From: Arthrobacter globiformis | GTDB lineage: Bacteria > Actinomycetota > Actinomycetes > Actinomycetales > Micrococcaceae | DNA: 64,000 nt | NCBI RefSeq assembly: GCF_030815865.1 | Contig: NZ_JAUSXI010000001.1 | Span: 372,001 to 436,000 of the forward strand | Direction of reading: 5' to 3' | Shown here: positions 21,551 through 34,665 of the stretch, piece by piece | Layout of the letters: each line of letters opens with the position of its first letter | How positions within the stretch are numbered: position 1 is the stretch's first letter | The notes under the pieces: model-generated | What the model saw: only the letters and a program-made list of their open reading frames with translations | Told to the model about the DNA's origin: nothing | Databases searched by the model: none | Program-made: the position numbers and the translations under genes

Positions 21551-24433
<2,883 letters not shown>

Positions 24434-24483
24434 GAGGAACTCCAGGTTTGGCCGGCCAGGTGTGGCACGGCATGGTTTGGGTT

Positions 24484-24675
24484 CCTCCCCGCTCTGTATT
24501 GGACCTGAGAGATTCCGCGGACATGGTTCTCCGCTTGCACCGTCGGTGAGCCAAAAAGGTTTTGGCTGCTTTCCAGAGTTGCCTAGCCGCGGCGGTACGG
24601 GGGCCTGAGAGATTCCTGGGGAGGATTTGCTCCTACGGCGCCTGCCCGGTGAATGACTGGGAGGACTCTCCCGCC
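24484..24675 (-). promoter_or_regulatory. Tandem glycine riboswitch upstream of gcvP
   Basis: Two aptamers in series on the minus strand. The first opens with GGCGGGAGAG and has the conserved GGCGCCGTAGGAGCAA and AATCTCTCAGG; the second has GGCAACTCTGGAAAGC, CACCGACGGTGCAAGC and AATCTCTCAGGTCCAATAC. These are the hallmarks of the cooperative glycine riboswitch (gcvT motif). It ends about 50 nt before gcvP and should switch gcvPTH on when glycine is high. The mirror copy at 24881-25069 is nearly identical. Confidence 0.96.
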
Positions 24676-24880
24676 ACGGTTCGAAAGGCTATGAAGATAT
24701 GGGGTGATTCGGCTCACAAGTTACCGGACAATTCCGTGCAGCACAAATCGGAGGTCCTCGTTTGACAATTCTTCGTGACCGAGACCACACTGAACCCGGC
24801 GACCAGCGGGTCCGGCCGGAAAGACGGCCGCCGCCGGCACGCATAATTTTCTTACATAATTGAAAAAGCTTACGATCTGC
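24676..24880. promoter_or_regulatory. Divergent promoter region between the two glycine riboswitches
   Basis: About 205 bp that must hold both promoters. TTGACA at 24763 and AT-rich stretches (CATAATTTTCTTACATAAT, from about 24842) are candidate elements for the plus-strand transcript. No clear -35/-10 pair was identified for the minus strand. No open frame of note. Confidence 0.4.
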
Positions 24881-25069
24881 GGCGGGAGAGTCCTGCCGGT
24901 ACGTTCAGCAGGCGCCGTAGGAGCAAACCCTCCCCAGGAAACTCTCAGGCCCACGTACCGCCGCGGCGAGGCAACTCTGGAAAGCAGGCAGGCACGTCCT
25001 GTCTCACCGACGGTGCAAGCGGAAGACCATGTCCGCGGAATCTCTCAGGTCCAAGACAGAGCGGGGAGG
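24881..25069 (+). promoter_or_regulatory. Tandem glycine riboswitch upstream of cycA
   Basis: Two aptamers on the plus strand: GGCGGGAGAGTCCTGCC, GGCGCCGTAGGAGCAAAC and AAACTCTCAGG, then GGCAACTCTGGAAAGC, CACCGACGGTGCAAGC and AATCTCTCAGGTCCAAGAC. Nearly identical to the minus-strand copy, differing mainly in variable stem loops. It ends about 47 nt before cycA, so glycine controls a transporter and two folate enzymes as well as the cleavage system. Confidence 0.96.
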
Positions 25070-25115
25070 AACCGAATCAGTGTGGCTGTTCGCCACTTGA
25101 ACGATGGAGTTCCTT

Positions 25116-26618
25116 ATGACGATTCATCCGCCCGCCTCCCCACCCAGTTCCTCAGCCGGTGAGGCTCCCCGCCTGGAGCGGCAGCTGAGCAACCGGCACA
25201 TTCAGCTGATCGCCATCGGCGGCGCCATTGGCACGGGCCTGTTCATGGGCTCGGGCAAGACCATTTCAGCGGCCGGACCGTCCGTGATCTTCGTGTACAT
25301 GATCATCGGTTTCATGCTCTTTTTCGTCATGCGGGCCATGGGCGAGCTGCTGCTGAGCAACCTGAACTACAAGTCCTTTAGCGATTTCGCCGCTGACCTG
25401 CTGGGACCGTGGGCGGGGTTCTTCACTGGATGGACCTACTGGTTCTGCTGGGTGATTACCGGAATCGCGGACGTCATCGCCATCGCAGGTTACTCCCGTG
25501 AGCTCTGGCCGGGATTGCCTCTCTGGATCCCGGGCCTGGCCACCGTCGCCATCCTGCTGCTGCTGAACCTCACCACAGTCAAGGCGTTCGGTGAGACCGA
25601 ATTCTGGTTCGCCCTCATTAAAATCATCGCCATCGCGGCCCTGATCATCGTGGGCATGTTCATGATCTTCAGTGGATTCAAGAGCGACGCCGGACAGGCA
25701 AGCTTCACCAACCTGTGGAGCCATGGCGGCTTCTTCCCCAACGAATTCATGGGCTTTGTGGCCGGTTTCCAGATCGCCGTGTTCGCTTTTGTGGGCATTG
25801 AACTGGTGGGCACCACGGCTGCGGAGGCCAAGAACCCGGAGAGGAACCTTCCCAAGGCCATCAACTCCATCCCGGTCCGCGTGCTGCTCTTCTACGTGGG
25901 CGCCCTCATCATCCTGATGTCCGTCACGCCGTGGACCCAGTTCGCCGCCGGCCACAGCCCGTTCATTGCGATGTTCTCGCTGGCCGGACTCGGAGCCGCC
26001 GCCACGGTGGTCAACCTCGTGGTGCTGACCTCGGCGATGTCCTCGGCCAACTCCGGGATCTACTCCACCTCGCGCATGGTCTACGGACTGGCCCAGGAAG
26101 GCGACGCGCCGTCCGTCTTCAGCAGCCTGTCCCGACGCAAGGTACCCAGCAACGCCCTGTTCCTGTCCTGCGTGCTGCTGCTCTCCGGAGTGGTGCTCAT
26201 GTACGCCGGCCAGGACGTCGGCAAGGCGTTCGACATGGTCACCACCGTTTCCGCCGTCTGCTTCGTCTTCGTCTGGTCGATCATCCTCGCCAGCTACATC
26301 GCATTCCGGCGCCGCCGCCCGCACCTGCACAATGCGTCCAAGTTCAAGATGCCCGGCGGCATTCCCATGGTGTGGGTGGTCTTCGCGTTCTTCGCCTTCG
26401 TGCTATGGACCTTGACCACCCAGCCCGACACCCTGACCGCGCTGCTGGTCACCCCCGTCTGGTTCGTCCTGCTCGGTGCGGCCTGGCTGGTTCTGCGCCG
26501 CCGGCCTGCGCACCTGGCCCGCTACGCGGCCTTCCAGGATGAACTGCAGGCTGAGGAGAGCGCCGCCCGCGAGCATGCGAGCCGGCGTCTCGAAGAGAAG
26601 GAAAGCGTCAAGGGATGA
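25116..26618 (+). CDS. cycA: CycA-type glycine/D-serine/D-alanine permease
   Basis: A 500-aa, 12-helix APC-superfamily permease. The block AIGTGLFMGSGKTISAAGPS, then FMLFFVMRAMGELLLSN, KSFSDFAADLLGPWAGFFTG and WTYWFCWVITG are near-identical to the CycA pattern of enteric bacteria. The start is set at the ATG at 25116 (MTIHPP) because GGAG sits 7 nt upstream, although an in-frame ATG lies at 25104. It follows a glycine riboswitch and is coupled to purU. Glycine import, or export when in excess, fits the control. Confidence 0.94.
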   Translation: MTIHPPASPPSSSAGEAPRLERQLSNRHIQLIAIGGAIGTGLFMGSGKTISAAGPSVIFVYMIIGFMLFFVMRAMGELLLSNLNYKSFSDFAADLLGPWAGFFTGWTYWFCWVITGIADVIAIAGYSRELWPGLPLWIPGLATVAILLLLNLTTVKAFGETEFWFALIKIIAIAALIIVGMFMIFSGFKSDAGQASFTNLWSHGGFFPNEFMGFVAGFQIAVFAFVGIELVGTTAAEAKNPERNLPKAINSIPVRVLLFYVGALIILMSVTPWTQFAAGHSPFIAMFSLAGLGAAATVVNLVVLTSAMSSANSGIYSTSRMVYGLAQEGDAPSVFSSLSRRKVPSNALFLSCVLLLSGVVLMYAGQDVGKAFDMVTTVSAVCFVFVWSIILASYIAFRRRRPHLHNASKFKMPGGIPMVWVVFAFFAFVLWTLTTQPDTLTALLVTPVWFVLLGAAWLVLRRRPAHLARYAAFQDELQAEESAAREHASRRLEEKESVKG

Positions 26619-27574
26619 TCAGTACAGAGGAGAAGCCATCAACTGTTGCCCGTGCGGCGGACCCGACGGCGGAGCGCCAGGCGGAGGACCCGACGACGGC
26701 GGCGGGTCAGGCCCGCGGGGCCGGCGGGGAGTTTGTGCTCACCTTCCATTGCCCGGATTCCCTTGGAATTGTCCAGGCGGTTGCGGATTTCCTGCTCAAG
26801 CAGGCGTGCTACATCGTTGACCTCAAGCAGTTCGGCGACCGGAACGCGGGGCACTTCTTCATGAGGGTCCACTTCGCCTCAACGGGTGACACCGCCGCCG
26901 TCGAACAGCTCCGGGACAGCTTCGCGCCGCTGGCAGGTCAATGGAGCATGGATTGGCGCTTGGAGCGCCACGACCGCAAGCAGCGGATCCTGGTGATGGT
27001 GTCCAAGTACGATCACTGCCTCAACGACCTGCTGGTCCGCGCCCGCAGCGGCGAACTGCCGGTCGAGATCGCGGCGGTGGTGTCCAACCACCCGGACCTC
27101 GAAGGGCTCGCGGCCTGGCACGGGGTCCCGTTCCACCACATCCCCGTGACGCGGGAGACCAAAGCGGAAACGGAGGCCAAGCTCCTGGAACTGGTGGACG
27201 AGTATGACGTTGAACTCGTGGTCCTGGCCCGCTACATGCAGGTCCTCAGCGACTCGGCCACCGCCCGGCTCGCCGGCAAGGCCATCAACATCCATCATTC
27301 ATTCCTACCCAGCTTCAAGGGCGCAAAGCCGTATCACCAGGCCTATGAACGAGGCGTGAAGACGGTCGGCGCCACGGCCCACTACGTCAACTCAGAGCTT
27401 GATGAGGGCCCGATCATCGCGCAGCAGGTGATTGAGGTGGACCACACCTACGCACCCGCGGACCTGGTGTCCGTGGGCAAGGACGCGGAGTGCAAGGCCC
27501 TGACGAATGCTGTTCGCTGGCACGCCGAAGGAAGAATCATCCTGTCCGGGAACCGCACGGTCATCCTCCGCTGA
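26615..27574 (+). CDS. purU: Formyltetrahydrofolate deformylase
   Basis: A 319-aa hydrolase that splits 10-formyl-THF into THF and formate. An N-terminal extension of about 35 low-complexity residues precedes the ACT regulatory domain (FVLTFHCPDSLGIVQAVADFLL), which senses methionine and glycine in known PurU proteins. The formyltransferase-like catalytic domain follows: KQRILVMVSKYDHCLNDLL, VSNHPD, VVLARYMQVLS, INIHHSFLPSFKGAKPYHQAYERGVK and the conserved HYVNSELDEGPIIAQ. It overlaps cycA by ATGA, so it lies in the glycine-riboswitch transcript and would recycle THF during glycine cleavage. Confidence 0.96.
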   Translation: MISTEEKPSTVARAADPTAERQAEDPTTAAGQARGAGGEFVLTFHCPDSLGIVQAVADFLLKQACYIVDLKQFGDRNAGHFFMRVHFASTGDTAAVEQLRDSFAPLAGQWSMDWRLERHDRKQRILVMVSKYDHCLNDLLVRARSGELPVEIAAVVSNHPDLEGLAAWHGVPFHHIPVTRETKAETEAKLLELVDEYDVELVVLARYMQVLSDSATARLAGKAINIHHSFLPSFKGAKPYHQAYERGVKTVGATAHYVNSELDEGPIIAQQVIEVDHTYAPADLVSVGKDAECKALTNAVRWHAEGRIILSGNRTVILR

Positions 27575-27605
27575 CAAGCCCATCGAACCAGACCTGGAGT
27601 TGCTC

Positions 27606-28415
27606 ATGACGAACCAATTGCCTGTGCGCCTGGAGATTATTCCCACGGACGGCATTATTGCCAAAGTCCAGACGCACGTTCCTGCGGGATCAACCCTGAC
27701 CGTGACATGCCTCCCGCACCACGGGGTCGAGACCACCGTGCGGGCCTCGGTTCAACTTGGCCAACTGGGCTACAAGGTGATTCCGCATCTTGCCGCGCGA
27801 AGCCTTGAAAGCCGTGCCCAGCTTGCCGCCATGCTTCGTGACTGCGAGGCTGCGGGAATCACGGAAGTCTTCGCGATCGGAGGGGACGCTCCGGAGGCTG
27901 CCGGGCCCTACGGCAACAGCGGCCGGCTCATGGAAGACATTGCCGACCTGACCGGCGGGAACATGGCCATCGGCGTGGCCGGATACCCGGAAGGCCATCC
28001 GAAGTTCAACGAGCTGCAGATGCTCGATGCGCTGCTGGAGAAGCAGCATCTGGCCTCGAACGTGGTGACGCAGATGTGCTTTTCGGCGCCCAAAATCGGC
28101 TGGTACGCCGAACTGCTGCGCCGCGAGGGTATGGTTCTTCCGATCTGGGCGGGCGTGGCCGGGGCCGTCCCGCGGGCCAAGCTCATCTCGCTGGCCACCA
28201 AGATCGGTGTGGGTCCTTCGTTGAAGTTCCTGAACCGCAAGGGGCCGCTCGCGCGCAGGCTCCTGAATGCCGGCAGCTATTCATCCCGGTCCCTGGTTTC
28301 CGAACTGGACGCCGTGGAACCTGCGCTTGCGGGCATTCACCTCTACACGTTCAACAACGTCGAAACCCAGCCCGTGGTGAACTGGAGCGGCGTGGCAGGC
28401 GCGAGGGCTTCCTGA
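27606..28415 (+). CDS. MetF-family methylenetetrahydrofolate reductase-like protein
   Basis: A 269-aa TIM-barrel protein. GGAG 7 nt before the ATG at 27606 decides the start; the longer frame overlaps purU. Family features: VTCLPHHGVETTVRASVQLGQLGYKVIPHLAARSLESRAQL, EVFAIGGDAPEAAGPYGNSGRLMEDI, GVAGYPEGHPKF, VVTQMCFSAPKIGWYAELL, and LPIWAGVAGAVPRAKL, where canonical MetF has PGI. The typical MetF glutamate segment (EFFPP) is replaced by EIIPTDG. Such divergent MetF proteins often accompany C1-demethylation or glycine genes. Third gene of the glycine-regulated operon. Product direction unknown. Confidence 0.85.
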   Translation: MTNQLPVRLEIIPTDGIIAKVQTHVPAGSTLTVTCLPHHGVETTVRASVQLGQLGYKVIPHLAARSLESRAQLAAMLRDCEAAGITEVFAIGGDAPEAAGPYGNSGRLMEDIADLTGGNMAIGVAGYPEGHPKFNELQMLDALLEKQHLASNVVTQMCFSAPKIGWYAELLRREGMVLPIWAGVAGAVPRAKLISLATKIGVGPSLKFLNRKGPLARRLLNAGSYSSRSLVSELDAVEPALAGIHLYTFNNVETQPVVNWSGVAGARAS

Positions 28416-28507: not shown

Positions 28508-28550
28508 TCCCGCAACATCTTGCATTGTGAGCTGAAACCCATAATATGGG
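28508..28550 (+). promoter_or_regulatory. Candidate promoter and operator before gntP
   Basis: CCCATAaTATGGG at 28538-28550 is a perfect 13-bp palindrome that includes a TATAAT-like stretch. TTGtcccgCAA lies about 30 bp upstream (28506-28516). One or both may bind the IclR regulator encoded at 33697-34515. Sites are seen; binding is inferred. Confidence 0.4.
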
Positions 28551-28631
28551 AACAGCGAATGTGTCGCTCCTCACGACCGACCCCTGCTCCCAAGCCTTCA
28601 GTGCGGAAGGCCCAACGATCGGATTCCCCTC

Positions 28632-30098
28632 ATGTCAGACATCTCTGTCCTGATCAACACAGCCGTCGCGGTGCTCGCCGCCGTGCTGCTCATTGTCCGT
28701 TTCAGAGTCAACCCAGTCATCGCCCTGGTGGTCAGCTCCGTTTACCTCGGCCTCGCCGTCGGCCTCGGCGTCGAAAAGACCGTCAAGACCATCACCGCCG
28801 GATTCGGCGACATTATGGTGGACGTTGGCCTGCTCATCGCCTTCGGCGTCCTGATGGGCTCCATCCTCAACCAGAGCGGTGCCATCCGGCGCCTCGTGGA
28901 GCACCTGCTGAACACGTTCGGGCCCAAGCGCCTCCCGTACACCATGGGCCTGGCCATCGGTACGCTGCTGCAATCCATCTTCCTGGACGTCCTGCTCGTC
29001 ATCTCAGCCCCGCTGGCCCGCAAGCTGGCACCCAAAATCGGCGAACTCGGCACGGCACGCATGGCCACCGCCATGGCCATCGCCCTCGAATGCGGCATTG
29101 TCTTCACGGTCCCAGGCGTCGCATCCCTTGCCCTGGCAGGCCTCCTCAACGTGCCGCTCGGCAAAATGCTGCTGTTCGGCCTGCTGCTGGTCATCCCGAC
29201 CATCATCATCTCCATCGCCATCATGACCTTCCTCTTCCGCCGCGGCTTCTGGAACGAGGCCAAGGATGAGGACCACACCTTCGTCGCCGAGGAGGACCGG
29301 GAGGGTGAAGAGGAAGAGTACGACGGCGGTGCTGGCCGCACCGTTAGTGCCGGCGCCGCCGGCGGCGGGCCGGGCTCCAACGGGACTGCTGCCTCCAATG
29401 GAACCAAGGCACAGGTCGCCGGTAGCGTCGCCGTGGCCGAACGCGAACCCAAGCAGTTCCCGCTGATCGTCCTGTTCGCACCGCTGCTGACGTCGCTGCT
29501 CCTCATCGGGGCAGGAGCCATCCTGCAGATCCTCAAGATCGACCTGCCCTGGCTGCAGCTTCTCGGTGAACCCGTCATCGCCCTGCTGATCGGCCTGATC
29601 GGCACCTGCCTCGTCACCCGCTCCGCCATAGGGCAGAAGCGCGTCGAGGAGGCCATCGCCGTCGGCTTCAAGGAGAGCGGCCAGATCCTGATCCTCACCG
29701 GCGTGGGCGGTTCGCTCGCCGCGACCGTTGCCGCGGCCGGCCTTGGCCACATCCTCGGCGGCTTCTTCTCCGCGAGCACCGTCGCCCCGCTCCTGGTGGT
29801 CTGGGCCATCGCGGCCGTACTGCACATCGCCGTCGGCTCCGTCACCCTGTCCGCCATCACCGCCGCAGGCCTGCTGGCCCCCATCGCACCGGTCATCGGC
29901 CTGGACCCTGTGTTGCTGGCACTGTCGGCCGGCGCCGGATCACTGTTCATGGTCCACGTCACCAGTAACACCTTTTGGCTCCTGCAGTCGCTCCTGGGCC
30001 AGAGCGTACGGGGTGCCCTGAAATCGGTGACAGTCGGGGTCTCGGTGGCCTCCGTCGTCGCAATCCTGCTGATCCTGCCCATGAGCCTGCTGTTCTAG
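28632..30098 (+). CDS. GntP-family organic-acid:H+ symporter
   Basis: A 488-aa permease of the gluconate:H+ symporter family. Typical stretches: INTAVAVLAAVLLIVRFRVNPVIALVVSSVYLGL, GFGDIMVDVGLLIAFGVLMGSILNQSGA, ALECGIVFTVPGVASLALAG, GQILILTGVGGSLAATVAAAGLG and SAGAGSLFMVHVTSNTFWLLQS. A long acidic then Gly/Ala-rich cytoplasmic loop (about residues 210-275) is unusual. First gene of an operon with CoA-transferase and lyase genes. Gluconate, glycerate or a hydroxy-dicarboxylate are possible; the partners favour a dicarboxylate. Confidence 0.9.
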   Translation: MSDISVLINTAVAVLAAVLLIVRFRVNPVIALVVSSVYLGLAVGLGVEKTVKTITAGFGDIMVDVGLLIAFGVLMGSILNQSGAIRRLVEHLLNTFGPKRLPYTMGLAIGTLLQSIFLDVLLVISAPLARKLAPKIGELGTARMATAMAIALECGIVFTVPGVASLALAGLLNVPLGKMLLFGLLLVIPTIIISIAIMTFLFRRGFWNEAKDEDHTFVAEEDREGEEEEYDGGAGRTVSAGAAGGGPGSNGTAASNGTKAQVAGSVAVAEREPKQFPLIVLFAPLLTSLLLIGAGAILQILKIDLPWLQLLGEPVIALLIGLIGTCLVTRSAIGQKRVEEAIAVGFKESGQILILTGVGGSLAATVAAAGLGHILGGFFSASTVAPLLVVWAIAAVLHIAVGSVTLSAITAAGLLAPIAPVIGLDPVLLALSAGAGSLFMVHVTSNTFWLLQSLLGQSVRGALKSVTVGVSVASVVAILLILPMSLLF

Positions 30099-30154
30099 TC
30101 GAACCTGAATACCCCACGCGTTTCCGGCGTACGCCCACGAAAGAAGAAGACACC

Positions 30155-31405
30155 ATGACACCACCACGCATCGCGCCCCTGGAGGGCATCCGCGTCCTGG
30201 AACTCGGAAACTACATCGCCGCTCCCACGGCTGGGCGGCTGCTCGCTGACTTCGGCGCCGAGGTCATCAAAGTCGAGCGGCCCGGCACCGGCGACGAGCT
30301 GCGTAACTGGCGGCTGCACAAGGGCGACACCTCCATGTTGTACCGGACCATCAACCGCAACAAGAAGTCCGTCGTCCTGGATCTGCGGACCGAGGCCGGC
30401 AAGGAGGCGGTCCTGAAGCTCGCCGCCAAGTCGGACATCCTGCTGGAAAACTTCCGCCCGGGCACCCTGGAGAAGTGGGGTCTGGGCCCGGAGGTGCTGA
30501 ACGCGGCCAACCCGGAGCTCATCATCACGCGCATCTCCGCCTTCGGACAGACCGGCCCGCTGTCCGAACGGCCGGGCTTTGCCGCCGTGGCCGAGGCGTA
30601 CGGCGGGTTCCGGAACCTCGTTGGCGATCCCGACCGTCCGCCCGTACGGGTCGGCGTCTCCATTGGGGATTCCATCGCCGGACTGTACGCCGCGTTTGGC
30701 TCCATGATGAGCCTCTACCAGCGGGAAGCCCGACGCCGGGACTCGTCCGGCACCGTGCCGCTCACCGAGCGCATCATTGATGTGGCGCTCAACGAGGCCA
30801 TGTTCTCCATGATGGAATCCCTGATTCCCGATTACCAGGCGTACGGAGTGGACCGGCAGCGCGTGGGCGGCAGGATGGAAGGGATAGCGCCTTCAAACGC
30901 CTACATCTGCAGGGATGGGGCCAGCATTGTGGTCGCCGGCAACGGGGACTCCATCTACCAGCGGTACATGCAGACCATCGGCCGCCCTGACCTTGCCGAA
31001 GACCCCGCCCTGCAGAGCAACGCCGGCCGGTGGGACCGGCGCGAGGAACTCGACCAGGCCATCGGCGCCTGGACCGCGGAACTGGATGCCGCAGATGCGC
31101 TGGCCGCCCTCGACGCAGCCGGCGTTCCGGCCGGACCCATCTACACGGCGGCGGACATCAGCACCGACAGCCAGTACGCTGCCCGCAACATGGTCCAGAA
31201 ATTCGACGTCTCCACCGGCCAGGAGGTCCTGCCCGGCGTCGGCTTCCCGGGTATTGTTCCGGTGATCGGCAGCGAATCGCTCCCCATCCGGAACCTCGGC
31301 CCGGACCTGGGCGAAAACACGGCAGAAATCCTCTCCGGGCTCCTCGGCATGGACCGGGCAGAGATCAATGCGGCGACCGGCCGCGAGGAGGCACTCCGGG
31401 CATGA
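30155..31405 (+). CDS. CaiB/BaiF (class III) CoA-transferase
   Basis: A 416-aa family III CoA-transferase. ATG at 30155 after GAAAGAAGAAG; upstream in-frame sequence lies over gntP. Seen: PLEGIRVLELGNYIAAPTAGRLLADFGAEVIKVERPGTGDELR, RNKKSVVLDLRTEAGKEAVLKLAAKSDILLENFRPG, GQTGPLSERPGF, and GVSIGDSIAGLYAAFG, where the Asp is the expected acyl-anhydride-forming residue. It moves CoA from an acyl-CoA donor to a carboxylic acid. The coupled lyase suggests it activates an imported hydroxy-dicarboxylate. Confidence 0.93.
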   Translation: MTPPRIAPLEGIRVLELGNYIAAPTAGRLLADFGAEVIKVERPGTGDELRNWRLHKGDTSMLYRTINRNKKSVVLDLRTEAGKEAVLKLAAKSDILLENFRPGTLEKWGLGPEVLNAANPELIITRISAFGQTGPLSERPGFAAVAEAYGGFRNLVGDPDRPPVRVGVSIGDSIAGLYAAFGSMMSLYQREARRRDSSGTVPLTERIIDVALNEAMFSMMESLIPDYQAYGVDRQRVGGRMEGIAPSNAYICRDGASIVVAGNGDSIYQRYMQTIGRPDLAEDPALQSNAGRWDRREELDQAIGAWTAELDAADALAALDAAGVPAGPIYTAADISTDSQYAARNMVQKFDVSTGQEVLPGVGFPGIVPVIGSESLPIRNLGPDLGENTAEILSGLLGMDRAEINAATGREEALRA

Positions 31406-32391
31406 ACCAGCACCACGACTCGGCCATCCTGCGGGACGTCACCCTGCGGGACGGGCTGCAGCTCACCGGGAAAGTCCTGTCCACCGAACGGAAGCTGGAG
31501 ACGGTCCGGGAACTGCTCCGCCTCGGCGTGCCGGCCATCGAGCTGGGCTCCATGGCCCGCCCGGACCTCGTCCCCACCATGGCCAACACGCTCGAGGTGG
31601 TCCAGAACCTGACTCCCGAGGAGCTGGAAAGGTGCTGGATCTGGGTGGCCACCCCCCGCCACGTGACCAAGGCCGCGGCCGCCGGCGCGCGCAACTTCCA
31701 GTACTGCCTCTCGGCGTCGGACTCGCACAACAAGGCGAACATCGGGCGCACCACGGAGGAGAGCCTCGCCGCGCTGCCCCAGGCTGTGGAGTACGCACAG
31801 GCGGTCAACGGGCAGATCCAGCTGTGCATCGCGACGTCCTTTACCTGCCCGTTCGAGGGGACCGTGCCCGAGGAGCGGATCCTGGCGATCGCCAACGACC
31901 CCCGTGCGGAAGGAACCACGGACATCGTCCTCTGCGACACCCTGGGCCAGGCCATCCCCGCCCAGGTGACCGGCCTCATCCAGCGCGTCCTGGCGGAATC
32001 CCCGGCGCGCCGGATCGTGTACCACGGGCACGATACCTGGGGCCTGGGCGTGGCCAACACCCTCGCCGCGATCCAGGCCGGTGCCGCCATGGTGGACGGT
32101 GCGCTCGGCGGACTGGGCGGCTGCCCGTTCGCCCCGGGTGCCAGCGGGAACACCTCCAGCGAGGACATCCTGTTCGCCAGCCGGCCCGGCTGGGTGACTC
32201 CCGAAACCTTCGCGGACCTCGTAGTCCTGTCCGAGAAGCTGCTCGCCGAACTGGGCGAGCCCAACCGTTCCAAGGCGGCGCAGGGCGCCAGGTCCAAGGC
32301 CCCGGCGTTCGAATGGGTCATCCCGTCGGACAGTGCTGCTTCCGCGGCGCCGTGCACGACGAGAGGGCCGTGCACGACGAGAGGCGAGTAG
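31402..32391 (+). CDS. Hydroxymethylglutaryl-CoA lyase-like enzyme
   Basis: A 329-aa DRE-TIM metallolyase coupled to the CoA-transferase by ATGA. Catalytic residues of HMG-CoA lyase are all present: Arg16-Asp17 (DVTLRDGLQ), Glu in AIELGSM, His208 and His210 (YHGHDTWGLG) and Cys241 in the signature GGLGGCPFAPGASGN. The reaction is retro-aldol cleavage of a 3-hydroxyacyl-CoA to acetyl-CoA plus a ketone or keto acid. The last residues repeat (PCTTRG twice) from an 18-bp tandem duplication at about 32350-32385. True substrate unknown: HMG-CoA, citramalyl-CoA and hydroxylated analogues fit. Confidence 0.9.
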   Translation: MNQHHDSAILRDVTLRDGLQLTGKVLSTERKLETVRELLRLGVPAIELGSMARPDLVPTMANTLEVVQNLTPEELERCWIWVATPRHVTKAAAAGARNFQYCLSASDSHNKANIGRTTEESLAALPQAVEYAQAVNGQIQLCIATSFTCPFEGTVPEERILAIANDPRAEGTTDIVLCDTLGQAIPAQVTGLIQRVLAESPARRIVYHGHDTWGLGVANTLAAIQAGAAMVDGALGGLGGCPFAPGASGNTSSEDILFASRPGWVTPETFADLVVLSEKLLAELGEPNRSKAAQGARSKAPAFEWVIPSDSAASAAPCTTRGPCTTRGE

Positions 32392-32393
32392 GA

Positions 32394-33183
32394 ATGGGCA
32401 GCAGTTTCCTGGTCACCACGGCGATTCCGGACCCCGGGCTGCAGCTGCTTTCCGACGCCGGCACGGTCACCGTGCTGCCGTCGCCTCCCGACTATGAGAG
32501 GCTGGCGGCGCTGTGCGCCTCGGGCGAGTACGACCTCGTCCTCACCCAGCTGCGCGACGTCATCGACGCCCCACTGCTGGCCGGCGCGCAGGTGAAGGGC
32601 GTGTCCAACTTCGCGGTCGGGTACAACAACATCGACGTGGACGCCGCCACGCGGCACGGCATCCTGGTGGGCAACACCCCCCGGGGTGCTGACGGACGCG
32701 ACTGCGGATATCGCAATGCTGCTCGTCCTCGGCACTGCCCGCCGTGTGGTGTAAGCGGACCGGCTGGTCCGCGACGGCAAGTTCCACGGTTGGGAACCGG
32801 AGCTGCTGTTGGGCCGGGACGTCTCCGGTGCGGTGCTGGGCCTGGCCGGGTTCGGCCGGATTGCCCGCGCCACCGCCCGCCGTGCCCTGGGTTTCGGGAT
32901 GGAGGTGCTCTTCGCGCCGCAGCCCCCGGGTCACCGGCAGGTCGGCGACGAGGAGCTGGGCGAGTTCGCGGGGAAGGTACGGCAGGTTTCCTGGGATGAG
33001 CTGGTGGGACGCAGCGACTTCCTGTCCCTGCACGTGCCCCTCAACGACCAGACCCGGCACCTGGTGGACCGGGCGGTGCTGGAGCGGATGAAGTCCGATG
33101 CCATCCTGATCAACACGGCCCGCGGTCCGGTGGTGGACGAGGCCGCCCTGGTCGGGGCGCTCCGGGAGGGGCTCATTGCCGGC
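32394..33183 (+). pseudogene. Broken D-2-hydroxyacid dehydrogenase (glyoxylate/hydroxypyruvate reductase type)
   Basis: The ATG at 32394 opens a normal N terminus (FLVTTAIPDPGLQLLSDAGTVTVL, VKGVSNFAVGYNNIDVDAATRHGILVGNTP). One extra C in the run at 32677-32682 then shifts the frame; removing it restores GVLTDATADIAMLLVLGTARRVV. TAA at 32752-32754 then stands where Glu is expected (GAA to TAA). Beyond it come ADRLVRDGKFHGW, the Rossmann motif LGLAGFGRIARATARR and LINTARGPVVDEAAL. The last 80 or so residues, with the catalytic His, are missing: the frame runs into a glycerate kinase fragment. Two separate lesions plus a deletion make this a true pseudogene. Confidence 0.92.
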
Positions 33184-33666
33184 GCAGGGCATGGTGGCAG
33201 CGGGCGGCTCCGCCGCCACCGACGGAGGGGCCGGCGCCGTCCAGGCCATCAACGACGGCGGTGGCCTCAGGGGTGCCCGGCTCACCGTGCTCTCCGCTGT
33301 CACTTCGACCTTCCTGGATGCGCCGCGGATTCTTGGGCCGCAGAAGGGCGCCGGCCACGCCGAGATCGAACTGCTGGAACAGCGGCTCGGGCAACTGGCG
33401 GAGTCGTATCCCCGCAACCCCGTTGGCGTGCCGCGCACCGGGGCGGCGGGTGGCCTGTCCGGCGGGCTGTGGGCGCACTTCGGCGCCGAACTCGTCTCCG
33501 GAGCGGACGCTGTCCTGGATGCCGCCAGTTCGACCGGCATCTGGAAGCTGCGGACGCCGTCGTGGTGGGTGAGGGGCGGCTTGATTCGCAGACCGGGGAG
33601 GGCAAGATCATTTCCGCGATCCTGGAACGGGTGCGCCGATCGGGTATTTCCGCTTCGCGACCCTGA
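33184..33666 (+). pseudogene. Glycerate kinase remnant
   Basis: An internal and C-terminal piece of a GlxK/GarK-type glycerate kinase with no start. It reads MVAAGGSAATDGGAGAVQAI, then RLTVLSAVTSTFLDAPRILGPQKGA, NPVGVPRTGAAGGLSGGLWAHFGAEL and ADAVLDA. At about 33523-33532 the frame shifts, and FDRHLEAADAVVVGEGRLDSQTGEGKIISAILERV follows in another frame. The end is also truncated. It is joined directly to the 3'-truncated dehydrogenase, so one deletion probably removed the end of that gene and the first half of this one. Confidence 0.92.
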
Positions 33667-33667
33667 T

Positions 33668-33715
33668 GTTTCCCGGCGGGGCTTCCCTGCGGGGCGCTAA
33701 GCCTCGCCGGGAAAC
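33668..33715. terminator. Hairpin between the kinase remnant and iclR
   Basis: GTTTCCCGGCGGGGCTT pairs with AAGCCTCGCCGGGAAAC around a 14-nt loop (one mismatch bulge). It overlaps the last codons of the convergent iclR gene. Probably the original operon terminator. Confidence 0.55.
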
Positions 33716-34515
33716 CGGCCGCCGATCAGTCGTGTCATGTGCTCGGCCGTTGCAAGCAGCGGCTCAACCCAGCCCTCACAGGTCTCCAGGGGCATCCGCA
33801 ACGTGGGTCCGCTGACGGTCACCGCGCCCACCAGTCCGGCCGCGGAGTCGAAAACCGGGGCGGAAAGCCCGGATGCCCCGTGTTCACGCTCACCCACCGT
33901 AATGGCGAACCCGTCCGTCCGGGTTTGCTTCACCACGCCCTCGAGATCTTCGGAACTGGTGATCGTGGACTCGGTGATCGGCTCCAACGGATCCTTGAGC
34001 ACGGCGTCCATGAGATCGGGATCCCACGCCAGCAGGACCCGGCCCGCCGAGCCGGCGTAGAGCGGAAGCACCTTGCCCAGGTGCATCTCCCGGCGCAGCG
34101 CATGGCGGGTCTCGGCCATGGCGACACACACCCGGTAATGCTGCTCGGCCTTGAAGAAGCAGGCTGTCTCGCCTGTGGTGTCCCGCAGGGTCTTGAGCAA
34201 GGGGCTGATGACGTCGATGACTTCCATCCCCCGCGTGGCAGGGGCAGCCCAGTACGCCATCCGCATTCCGATGCGGTAGGCGTCCTCCTCCCGGTCCAGA
34301 AAGCCCTGGGAGGTGAGGTTGGTGACCAGGCGCTGGACCGTGGAAGTGGGCATCCCGGTGTACTCCCGGATGTCACTCAGCGACAGCACCGGCCGGGAGA
34401 GCGAGAAGGCGTCCAGGATCGACGTGATTTTCCCCAGGACAAGCAGGGGGTTGCTGCTGGATTTCGCTGAAGCATCGGCTGCCGACATAGGACTCACGCT
34501 AGACGGTGGCTTCAC
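33697..34515 (-). CDS. IclR-family transcriptional regulator
   Basis: A 272-aa regulator with an N-terminal winged helix (LVLGKITSILDAFSLSRPVLSLSDIREYTGMPTSTVQRLVTNLTSQGFLDR) and a GAF-like effector domain (VCVAMAETRHALRREMHLGKVLPLYAGSAGRVLLAW, then SSEDLEGVVKQTRTDGFAITVGEREHGASGLSAPVFD). Start may be GTG at 34515, with AAGGA upstream, or ATG at 34488. It converges on the gntP operon, whose control it most likely provides. The effector is likely the imported acid or an intermediate. Confidence 0.92.
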   Translation of the reverse strand: MKPPSSVSPMSAADASAKSSSNPLLVLGKITSILDAFSLSRPVLSLSDIREYTGMPTSTVQRLVTNLTSQGFLDREEDAYRIGMRMAYWAAPATRGMEVIDVISPLLKTLRDTTGETACFFKAEQHYRVCVAMAETRHALRREMHLGKVLPLYAGSAGRVLLAWDPDLMDAVLKDPLEPITESTITSSEDLEGVVKQTRTDGFAITVGEREHGASGLSAPVFDSAAGLVGAVTVSGPTLRMPLETCEGWVEPLLATAEHMTRLIGGRFPGEA

Positions 34516-34549
34516 CCCGGTCCAATCCTTCGGCTCAACCCCGGACCCT

Positions 34550-34614
34550 GGAGTTTTTGTACAGATAACGGCCGCAAACGCCCCTGCAGCCCGCGATATC
34601 TGTACAAAAACTCC
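34550..34614. repeat. 65-bp palindromic intergenic element, copy 2
   Basis: Same 65-bp length and identical 17-bp arms (GGAGTTTTTGTACAGAT) as 19882-19946, with a 31-bp centre that shares GCAAACG but is otherwise diverged. It lies 52 bp after the end of the ammonium transporter gene and before iclR. Both copies sit just downstream of a minus-strand stop codon, ahead of a co-directional gene. Confidence 0.85.
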
Positions 34615-34665
34615 ATCCGCTGCTCCGTAAGTGCCGTTTCCTGTTCTCCTTGAAGATGACCAGGG

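Follow-up and report, generated by a model that had tools for sequence, protein, structure and literature searches.

A conserved actinomycete operon with decayed reductase and glycerate kinase genes in Arthrobacter globiformis, and a candidate route for itatartarate

Itatartarate (2-hydroxymethylmalate) is a derivative of fungal itaconate, and oxidation of xyloisosaccharinic acid is another conceivable source. The Chloroflexus work on citramalate, with its transferase and lyase pair Sct/Ccl, is reportedly Friedmann's. The available part of PMC8307300 gives EC numbers and KEGG entries for a succinyl-coenzyme A (CoA):(R)-citramalate CoA-transferase and an (R)-citramalyl-CoA lyase. For the itaconate operon of Pseudomonas, the part of PMC9875883 that was available describes conversion of 2-hydroxyparaconate to itatartarate and the accumulation of this product, in part alongside 2,4-dihydroxybutyrate, and reports that Pseudomonas strains did not grow on a mixture of 2-hydroxyparaconate and itatartarate. 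No bacterial route past itatartarate appears in the available portions of PMC11626831 and PMC12290011, and the lyase in the available text of PMC6689899 belongs to a different family, PF03328. The literature searched, which did not extend to most subscription journals, contained no bacterial catabolic route for itatartarate. Here we describe a gene cluster from Arthrobacter globiformis that encodes a permease, a CoA-transferase and a lyase resembling 3-hydroxy-3-methylglutaryl-CoA (HMG-CoA) lyase (HMGL). It lies in a window of 64,000 nt, positions 372001 to 436000 of a genome that consists of one contig of 5.11 Mb.

The cluster is a conserved operon with a conserved operator, in which the end genes have decayed in this genome and the operator and first three genes have been kept. 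With slightly less than even confidence, we read it as the decayed copy of a substrate-inducible catabolic operon of Actinomycetes that serves an itatartarate route with hydroxypyruvate as a product.

Genes and gene remnants in the window

The six genes and remnants listed in a first-pass annotation of this DNA, namely gntP, caiB, an HMGL-like lyase gene, remnants of a reductase and a kinase gene, and iclR, are all present. On the forward strand, gntP (28632 to 30098) encodes a GntP-family permease of 488 aa that matches PF02447 (3e-67) above the family cut-off (227.7 against 22.5 bits) and falls below that of the subfamily model TIGR00791 (202.7 against 292.75 bits). It is followed on the same strand by caiB (30155 to 31405), which encodes a class III CoA-transferase of 416 aa (PF02515, 2.9e-109). 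The top NCBIfam model for this protein is succinate--glutarate CoA-transferase, but its score of 243 bits misses the cut-off of 750, and among its solved relatives SUGCT stands third, behind two whose names describe no function. The HMGL-like lyase gene (31402 to 32391, forward strand; 329 aa; PF00682, 1.3e-40) overlaps the caiB stop by 4 nt. The convergent iclR (33697 to 34515, reverse strand) encodes an IclR-family regulator of 272 aa with IclR_C and HTH_IclR domains (PF01614 and PF09339). Pairwise ratios of nonsynonymous to synonymous substitution (dN/dS) against five or six relatives were 0.03-0.12 for these four genes (gntP, 0.06-0.12 against six relatives; caiB, 0.05-0.11; lyase gene, 0.06-0.12). 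These ratios, which average over both lineages compared, suggest that gntP, caiB and the lyase gene are under purifying selection and speak for a working front half.

Two pseudogenes on the forward strand follow the lyase gene. The first (32394 to 33190) derives from a gene for a D-2-hydroxyacid dehydrogenase of the glyoxylate/hydroxypyruvate type (PF00389 and PF02826) and has a frameshift, a stop and no C-terminus. Compared with the intact reductase of a relative (329 residues), residues 1-97 and 94-265 are found in two frames, at 72 % and 83 % identity, with one in-frame stop at 32752-32754, and the last 64 residues are gone. An extra base is present near 32676 relative to all four close relatives compared. 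The second pseudogene, at about 33191 to 33668, derives from a glycerate kinase gene (PF02595, 1.7e-15) that has lost its N-terminal third and its C-terminus, and includes residues 125-237 and 238-274 of 328 in two frames, at 65 % identity. Large losses were seen at the reductase/kinase junction (about 33188-33257) relative to all four relatives, with sizes that are approximate as the aligner splits the junction, and at the end of the kinase gene (about 33633) relative to three of the four; L123, which has no kinase gene, shows none there. Chance or sequencing error as the source of the remnants was ruled out: intact genes in close relatives match them, and losses this large exclude sequencing error. 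The dN/dS obtained for the reductase remnant was implausible and was not used, as stop characters are taken to have shifted the alignment. Elsewhere, the window genome has intact relatives of the reductase, at 52 % and 49 %, and three other kinase genes, and the two genes have probably been lost here because paralogs can do their work.

The intact kinase of one relative (L049) passes the glycerate kinase model TIGR00045 (232.6 bits, cut-off 168.45). The reductase of another (L041) misses the glyoxylate reductase equivalog NF009714 (310.9 bits, cut-off 455). The reductase has both 2-Hacid dehydrogenase domains, and its top solved relatives are glyoxylate reductases, together with a glycerate dehydrogenase/glyoxylate reductase.

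A one-carbon block adjoins the cluster (window 21551-28415) and includes a D-serine/D-alanine/glycine-type transporter gene, purU and a gene named by eye as that of a glycine dehydrogenase; a metF-like gene in the same block falls far below its family cut-off. An inverted repeat with 22-nt arms (34549-34570 and 34594-34615, 95 % complementary) lies between iclR and a gene named by eye as ammonium-transporter-like.

The operon and its operator in relatives

A scan of genome contigs gave 311 relatives of the lyase, and the best 80 were kept as named loci. In a family sample of 295 genomes, 227 had any lyase match and 51 had an ortholog of at least 65 % identity, the window genome included and two only in pieces. 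The named and family loci share genomes (for example, L047 and L124, or L050 and L103, look identical), and a non-identical set of 107 loci was obtained from 125. Genes were counted as intact when a match to an intact query had at least 90 % coverage and no stop and lay in an open frame of at least 270 residues.

The intact five-gene order that the first-pass annotation suspected behind the remnants was found in 13 of the 80 named loci (Arthrobacter, 8; Rhodococcus, 4; Corynebacterium lemuris, 1) and in 5 of the 51 family loci, and thus occurs in Micrococcales and Mycobacteriales. A convergent iclR was in range in 11 of these 13 named loci (not L110 or L119), in all five family loci, and in 52/80 named loci overall. 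The caiB gene precedes the lyase gene in all 80 named loci. An intact reductase gene was found in 43/80 named and 13/51 family loci, and an intact kinase gene in 13/80 and 5/51, respectively. Among the 107 non-identical loci, 50 have an intact reductase gene, 16 an intact kinase gene, 34 the reductase gene only and 57 neither; an intact kinase gene was never found without the reductase gene (0/107). With no intact reductase gene in 57 loci and no intact kinase gene in 91, the tail formed by these two genes is dispensable. Matches that failed the intactness threshold, most of them clear remnants, were found for the kinase in eight named loci and for the reductase in four, which indicates repeated decay of the tail; in L146, by contrast, the kinase gene is nearly full but displaced.

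The packing of the genes is tight. The lyase stop lies at most 10 bases from the reductase match in 35 of 44 named loci, the exceptions (L089, L103, L124 and six Rhodococcus-group loci) being due partly to the start length of the query, and the reductase stop overlaps the kinase match in 12 of 16, with exceptions (L087, L088, L124 and L146) that partly have the same cause. Over 38 loci, the distance correlation was r = 0.935 for lyase and reductase, 0.94 for gntP and caiB, and 0.80-0.84 for the others; related sequences inflate these values, and they are therefore support rather than proof. A quick lyase tree was built from the 107 non-identical loci and three outgroup paralogs (25 of 107 inner branches well supported, 46 drawn open). 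On this tree, at least 19 changes in reductase presence and 13 in kinase presence are needed, a count that does not distinguish gain from loss.

Cleavage to glyoxylate, for example from an acid of the malyl-CoA type, would make the reductase a glyoxylate reductase, as its best NCBIfam and PDB neighbours are, and would suit the 34/107 loci with an intact reductase gene and no intact kinase gene. However, the glycolate formed would need no glycerate kinase, malate-type acids have simpler routes, and we give this alternative only a slim chance. Absence of a glycerate kinase gene was considered as a falsifier and proved uninformative, as such a gene was found in 69/69 genomes without one in the cluster. 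In L235-L239, a glycerate kinase gene of the same subfamily (58-60 % identity) adjoins a gene resembling that for a beta-keto acid cleavage enzyme, with SDR, MFS transporter and LacI-like regulator genes nearby (by eye); this is possibly another glycerate-yielding catabolic route.

The import step varies: GntP is in place in 49/80 named loci, L042 has both GntP and ABC-transporter-like genes, and L071, L073, L078 and L080 have ABC-like genes without GntP. In these five loci the ABC-transporter-looking genes near the lyase gene (clusters 7, 13 and 10) number two or three per locus, and among the loci where GntP is not in place, some have ABC or MFS transporter-looking genes, named by eye, beside the lyase gene. 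Such variation would be consistent with another 3-hydroxyacyl-CoA as the intermediate, with the reductase and kinase on a side branch. To our knowledge, no other natural acid would account for all five genes, and we consider this alternative rather improbable.

Upstream of gntP lie two tandem palindromes that were absent from the first-pass annotation; its start for the cluster, 28538, falls inside the main one. The main palindrome, ACCCATAATATGGGA (28537 to 28551; consensus ACYCAYANTRTGRGT), is a probable IclR site, and the second, weaker copy, TCTTGCATTGTGAGC (28518 to 28532, forward strand), matches the consensus at 10 of 14 positions. In 66 distinct gntP upstream regions, a set restricted to loci with a full-length gntP sufficiently far from a contig end, the best score for the main operator was 14 of 14 in 8, 13 in 44, 12 in 13 and 11 in 1. 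The motif was built from the same sequences that it scores, and chance levels were set by controls: scores of at least 12 were reached by about 1.2 % of random windows from the same loci and about 0.6 % of mono-shuffled upstream regions. The second copy, 19 bases upstream, scores at least 9 in 57/66 regions, against a mean of about 4.4 over spacings. As judged by eye, -35-like and -10-like elements coincide with the two operator sites, the second copy overlapping the -35-like element; a promoter scan gave no site above its threshold. Scores of at least 12 were also found in 4/80 iclR upstream regions, and in 12 of 50 caiB upstream regions from loci without a full-length gntP. IclR probably controls gntP via a pair of promoter-overlapping operators spaced 19 bp apart; we infer binding from where the sites lie and from co-occurrence. 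With a two-site operator this conserved, a reporter would allow the inducer to be tested directly.

A search of the 5.11 Mb genome for the strict 13-base form, CCCATANTATGGG, allowing up to 1 mismatch, gave a single location. A wider regulon was considered and rejected: with one mismatch allowed, the relaxed pattern matched 38 times and the reversed control 24 times, with palindromes counted on both strands, and we therefore claim no second target.

The lyase clade and candidate substrates

The lyase belongs to a clade that, on sequence evidence, is separate from canonical HMG-CoA lyase. We take the catalytic residues of the human enzyme to be R41, D42, H233, H235, C266 and N275. All six equivalent positions are invariant in 13 aligned orthologs, which bears out the earlier statement that the lyase has all catalytic residues, and the motifs RDGLQLTG, GSMARPD, CWIWVATP and HGHDTWG are invariant and specific to the clade in the same alignment. 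In the family sample, the orthologs are grouped in a single block of 65-100 % identity, and the rest of the matches listed are at most 40 % identical. A phylum sample of 396 genomes gave 12 lyase matches at 1e-60, five at 2.4e-156 or lower and seven at about 1e-61 to 1e-70. Among 169 plasmid records with a lyase match, 3 reach at least 60 % identity, and one 1.35 Mb Arthrobacter record, found when plasmid carriage was considered, matches 59 % of the region at 82 %. Of 4862 relatives, 120 were listed; nearly all of those that have a name go by hydroxymethylglutaryl-CoA lyase, and a single one by (R)-citramalyl-CoA lyase.

One alternative is catabolism of 3-hydroxy-3-methylglutarate by a SUGCT-like CoA-transferase and HMG-CoA lyase to acetyl-CoA and acetoacetate. 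Among solved structures, HMG-CoA lyases are the nearest to the lyase and SUGCT is third for CaiB; the top NCBIfam model is HMG-CoA lyase for the former and succinate--glutarate CoA-transferase for the latter. However, the window lyase scores about 198 bits on the HMG-CoA lyase model NF004283 and, like its orthologs in L152 (190.1) and L145 (194.5), misses the cut-off of 246, whereas another lyase of the same genome passes it with 283.7 bits. The missed cut-off and this second lyase argue against the HMG-CoA lyase names on clade members and disfavour the canonical lyase of the leucine pathway. An HMG route would also leave the reductase and kinase unexplained, and the conserved cluster showed no obvious acetoacetate gene; we give this route a very slight chance. 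The lyase that passes is encoded in a second cluster of the window genome (L084, C1:3838001-3858000), with CoA-transferase, HMG-CoA-lyase-like, IclR-like and ABC-transporter-looking genes.

Hydroxypyruvate is, in our view, the best reading of the product to which the reductase-kinase tail points. HMGL-type lyases usually have acetyl-CoA as their fixed product. Acetyl-CoA and hydroxypyruvate together would imply 2-hydroxymethylmalyl-CoA, which is itatartaryl-CoA, as the lyase substrate, and we hypothesize that itatartarate is the acid used; the chemistry proposed for it in the first-pass annotation is coherent. From the gene content we infer the following steps. GntP would import the hydroxylated branched dicarboxylate, the CaiB protein would transfer CoA to it from an acyl-CoA donor, and retro-Claisen cleavage of the resulting 3-hydroxyacyl-CoA by the lyase would give acetyl-CoA and a 2-oxoacid. 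Where the operon is complete, the reductase would convert this 2-oxoacid, hydroxypyruvate, to D-glycerate and the kinase D-glycerate to 2-phosphoglycerate. The window genome would retain import, activation and cleavage after loss of the last two enzymes. More tentatively still, Actinomycetes may have a dedicated, IclR-controlled itatartarate pathway in which GntP, CoA transfer, a new HMGL-type itatartaryl-CoA lyase, the reductase and the kinase lead to 2-phosphoglycerate.

Several observations weigh against itatartarate. Inspection, as opposed to sequence searches aimed at them, revealed neither a 2-hydroxyparaconate lactonase nor any further conserved enzyme in the cluster, and neither a lactonase nor an itaconate gene beside it. 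The literature searched offered no enzyme assay or growth datum. Loci without an intact reductase (57/107) or kinase (91/107) gene are in the majority, and reductase-less members of the 13-row alignment keep identical invariant lyase motifs, which means that hydroxypyruvate is handled by other genes in such loci or that the tail plays no central part. Only 11 of 32 cluster genomes without a local reductase gene had a close reductase relative (E up to 1e-55), these 32 being taken from 37 such genomes, and most therefore have no close substitute; the corresponding figure for hand-picked cluster-less genomes was 5/37 (Fisher p 0.05, weak). Whether reductase and kinase change together on the tree was examined by a sign test, whose median p was 0.06 with looser labels. 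The operator also precedes operons without reductase and kinase genes, and does not therefore speak for the tail.

The 57 loci without an intact reductase gene suit catabolism of (R)-citramalate (or D-malate), in which the cluster would be an actinobacterial counterpart of Sct/Ccl, citramalyl-CoA would be made by CaiB and cleaved to acetyl-CoA and pyruvate, and the tail would be accessory. In its two enzymes the cluster is similar to the known pair for citramalate, listed as EC 2.8.3.20 and 4.1.3.46 (available part of PMC8307300), and the one record of the clade named (R)-citramalyl-CoA lyase points the same way. However, pyruvate requires neither a reductase nor a glycerate kinase, yet both are in the operon across several genera, and the kinase is always accompanied by the reductase. 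We regard citramalate as unlikely, though by no means far-fetched. The first-pass annotation had called the whole a possible undescribed route. Its reading is supported in part, by the intact gene order, the tight packing, the absence of the kinase without the reductase, the correlated divergence of reductase and lyase, and the missed HMG-CoA lyase cut-off. The word undescribed does not hold for the CoA-transferase and lyase part, because the (R)-citramalate pair is already listed.

If the itatartarate reading is right, the operon would close the gap after itatartarate, linking fungal itaconate chemistry to actinomycetes, and would supply enzymes for C5 diacids.

Comparison with described systems

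Sct and Ccl are presumably members of the CaiB and HMGL families, a pairing that the adjacent class III CoA-transferase and HMGL-type genes of the window match. As far as the available part of PMC8307300 describes Sct/Ccl of Chloroflexus aurantiacus, a CoA-transferase acts there together with a lyase on a branched 3-hydroxy C5 diacid, as is proposed for the operon reported here. GntP and the convergent iclR of this operon, and the reductase and glycerate kinase of some relatives, set it apart from Sct/Ccl as described. HMG-CoA lyase (NF004283, EC 4.1.3.4) shares the PF00682 family and the catalytic residues with the window lyase, but the latter misses the curated cut-off and has its own conserved motifs, and no leucine-pathway genes were noticed in the conserved cluster. 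SUGCT, a succinate--hydroxymethylglutarate CoA-transferase, is likewise a class III CoA-transferase acting on diacids, but is only a distant match to CaiB (6.1e-53 over 397 residues). The Pseudomonas itaconate operon PA0878-0886, which includes a 2-hydroxyparaconate lactonase, is alike in the CoA-dependent use of branched C5 diacids that is proposed here; its lyase is, we assume, of the CitE type, unlike the HMGL-type lyase found here.

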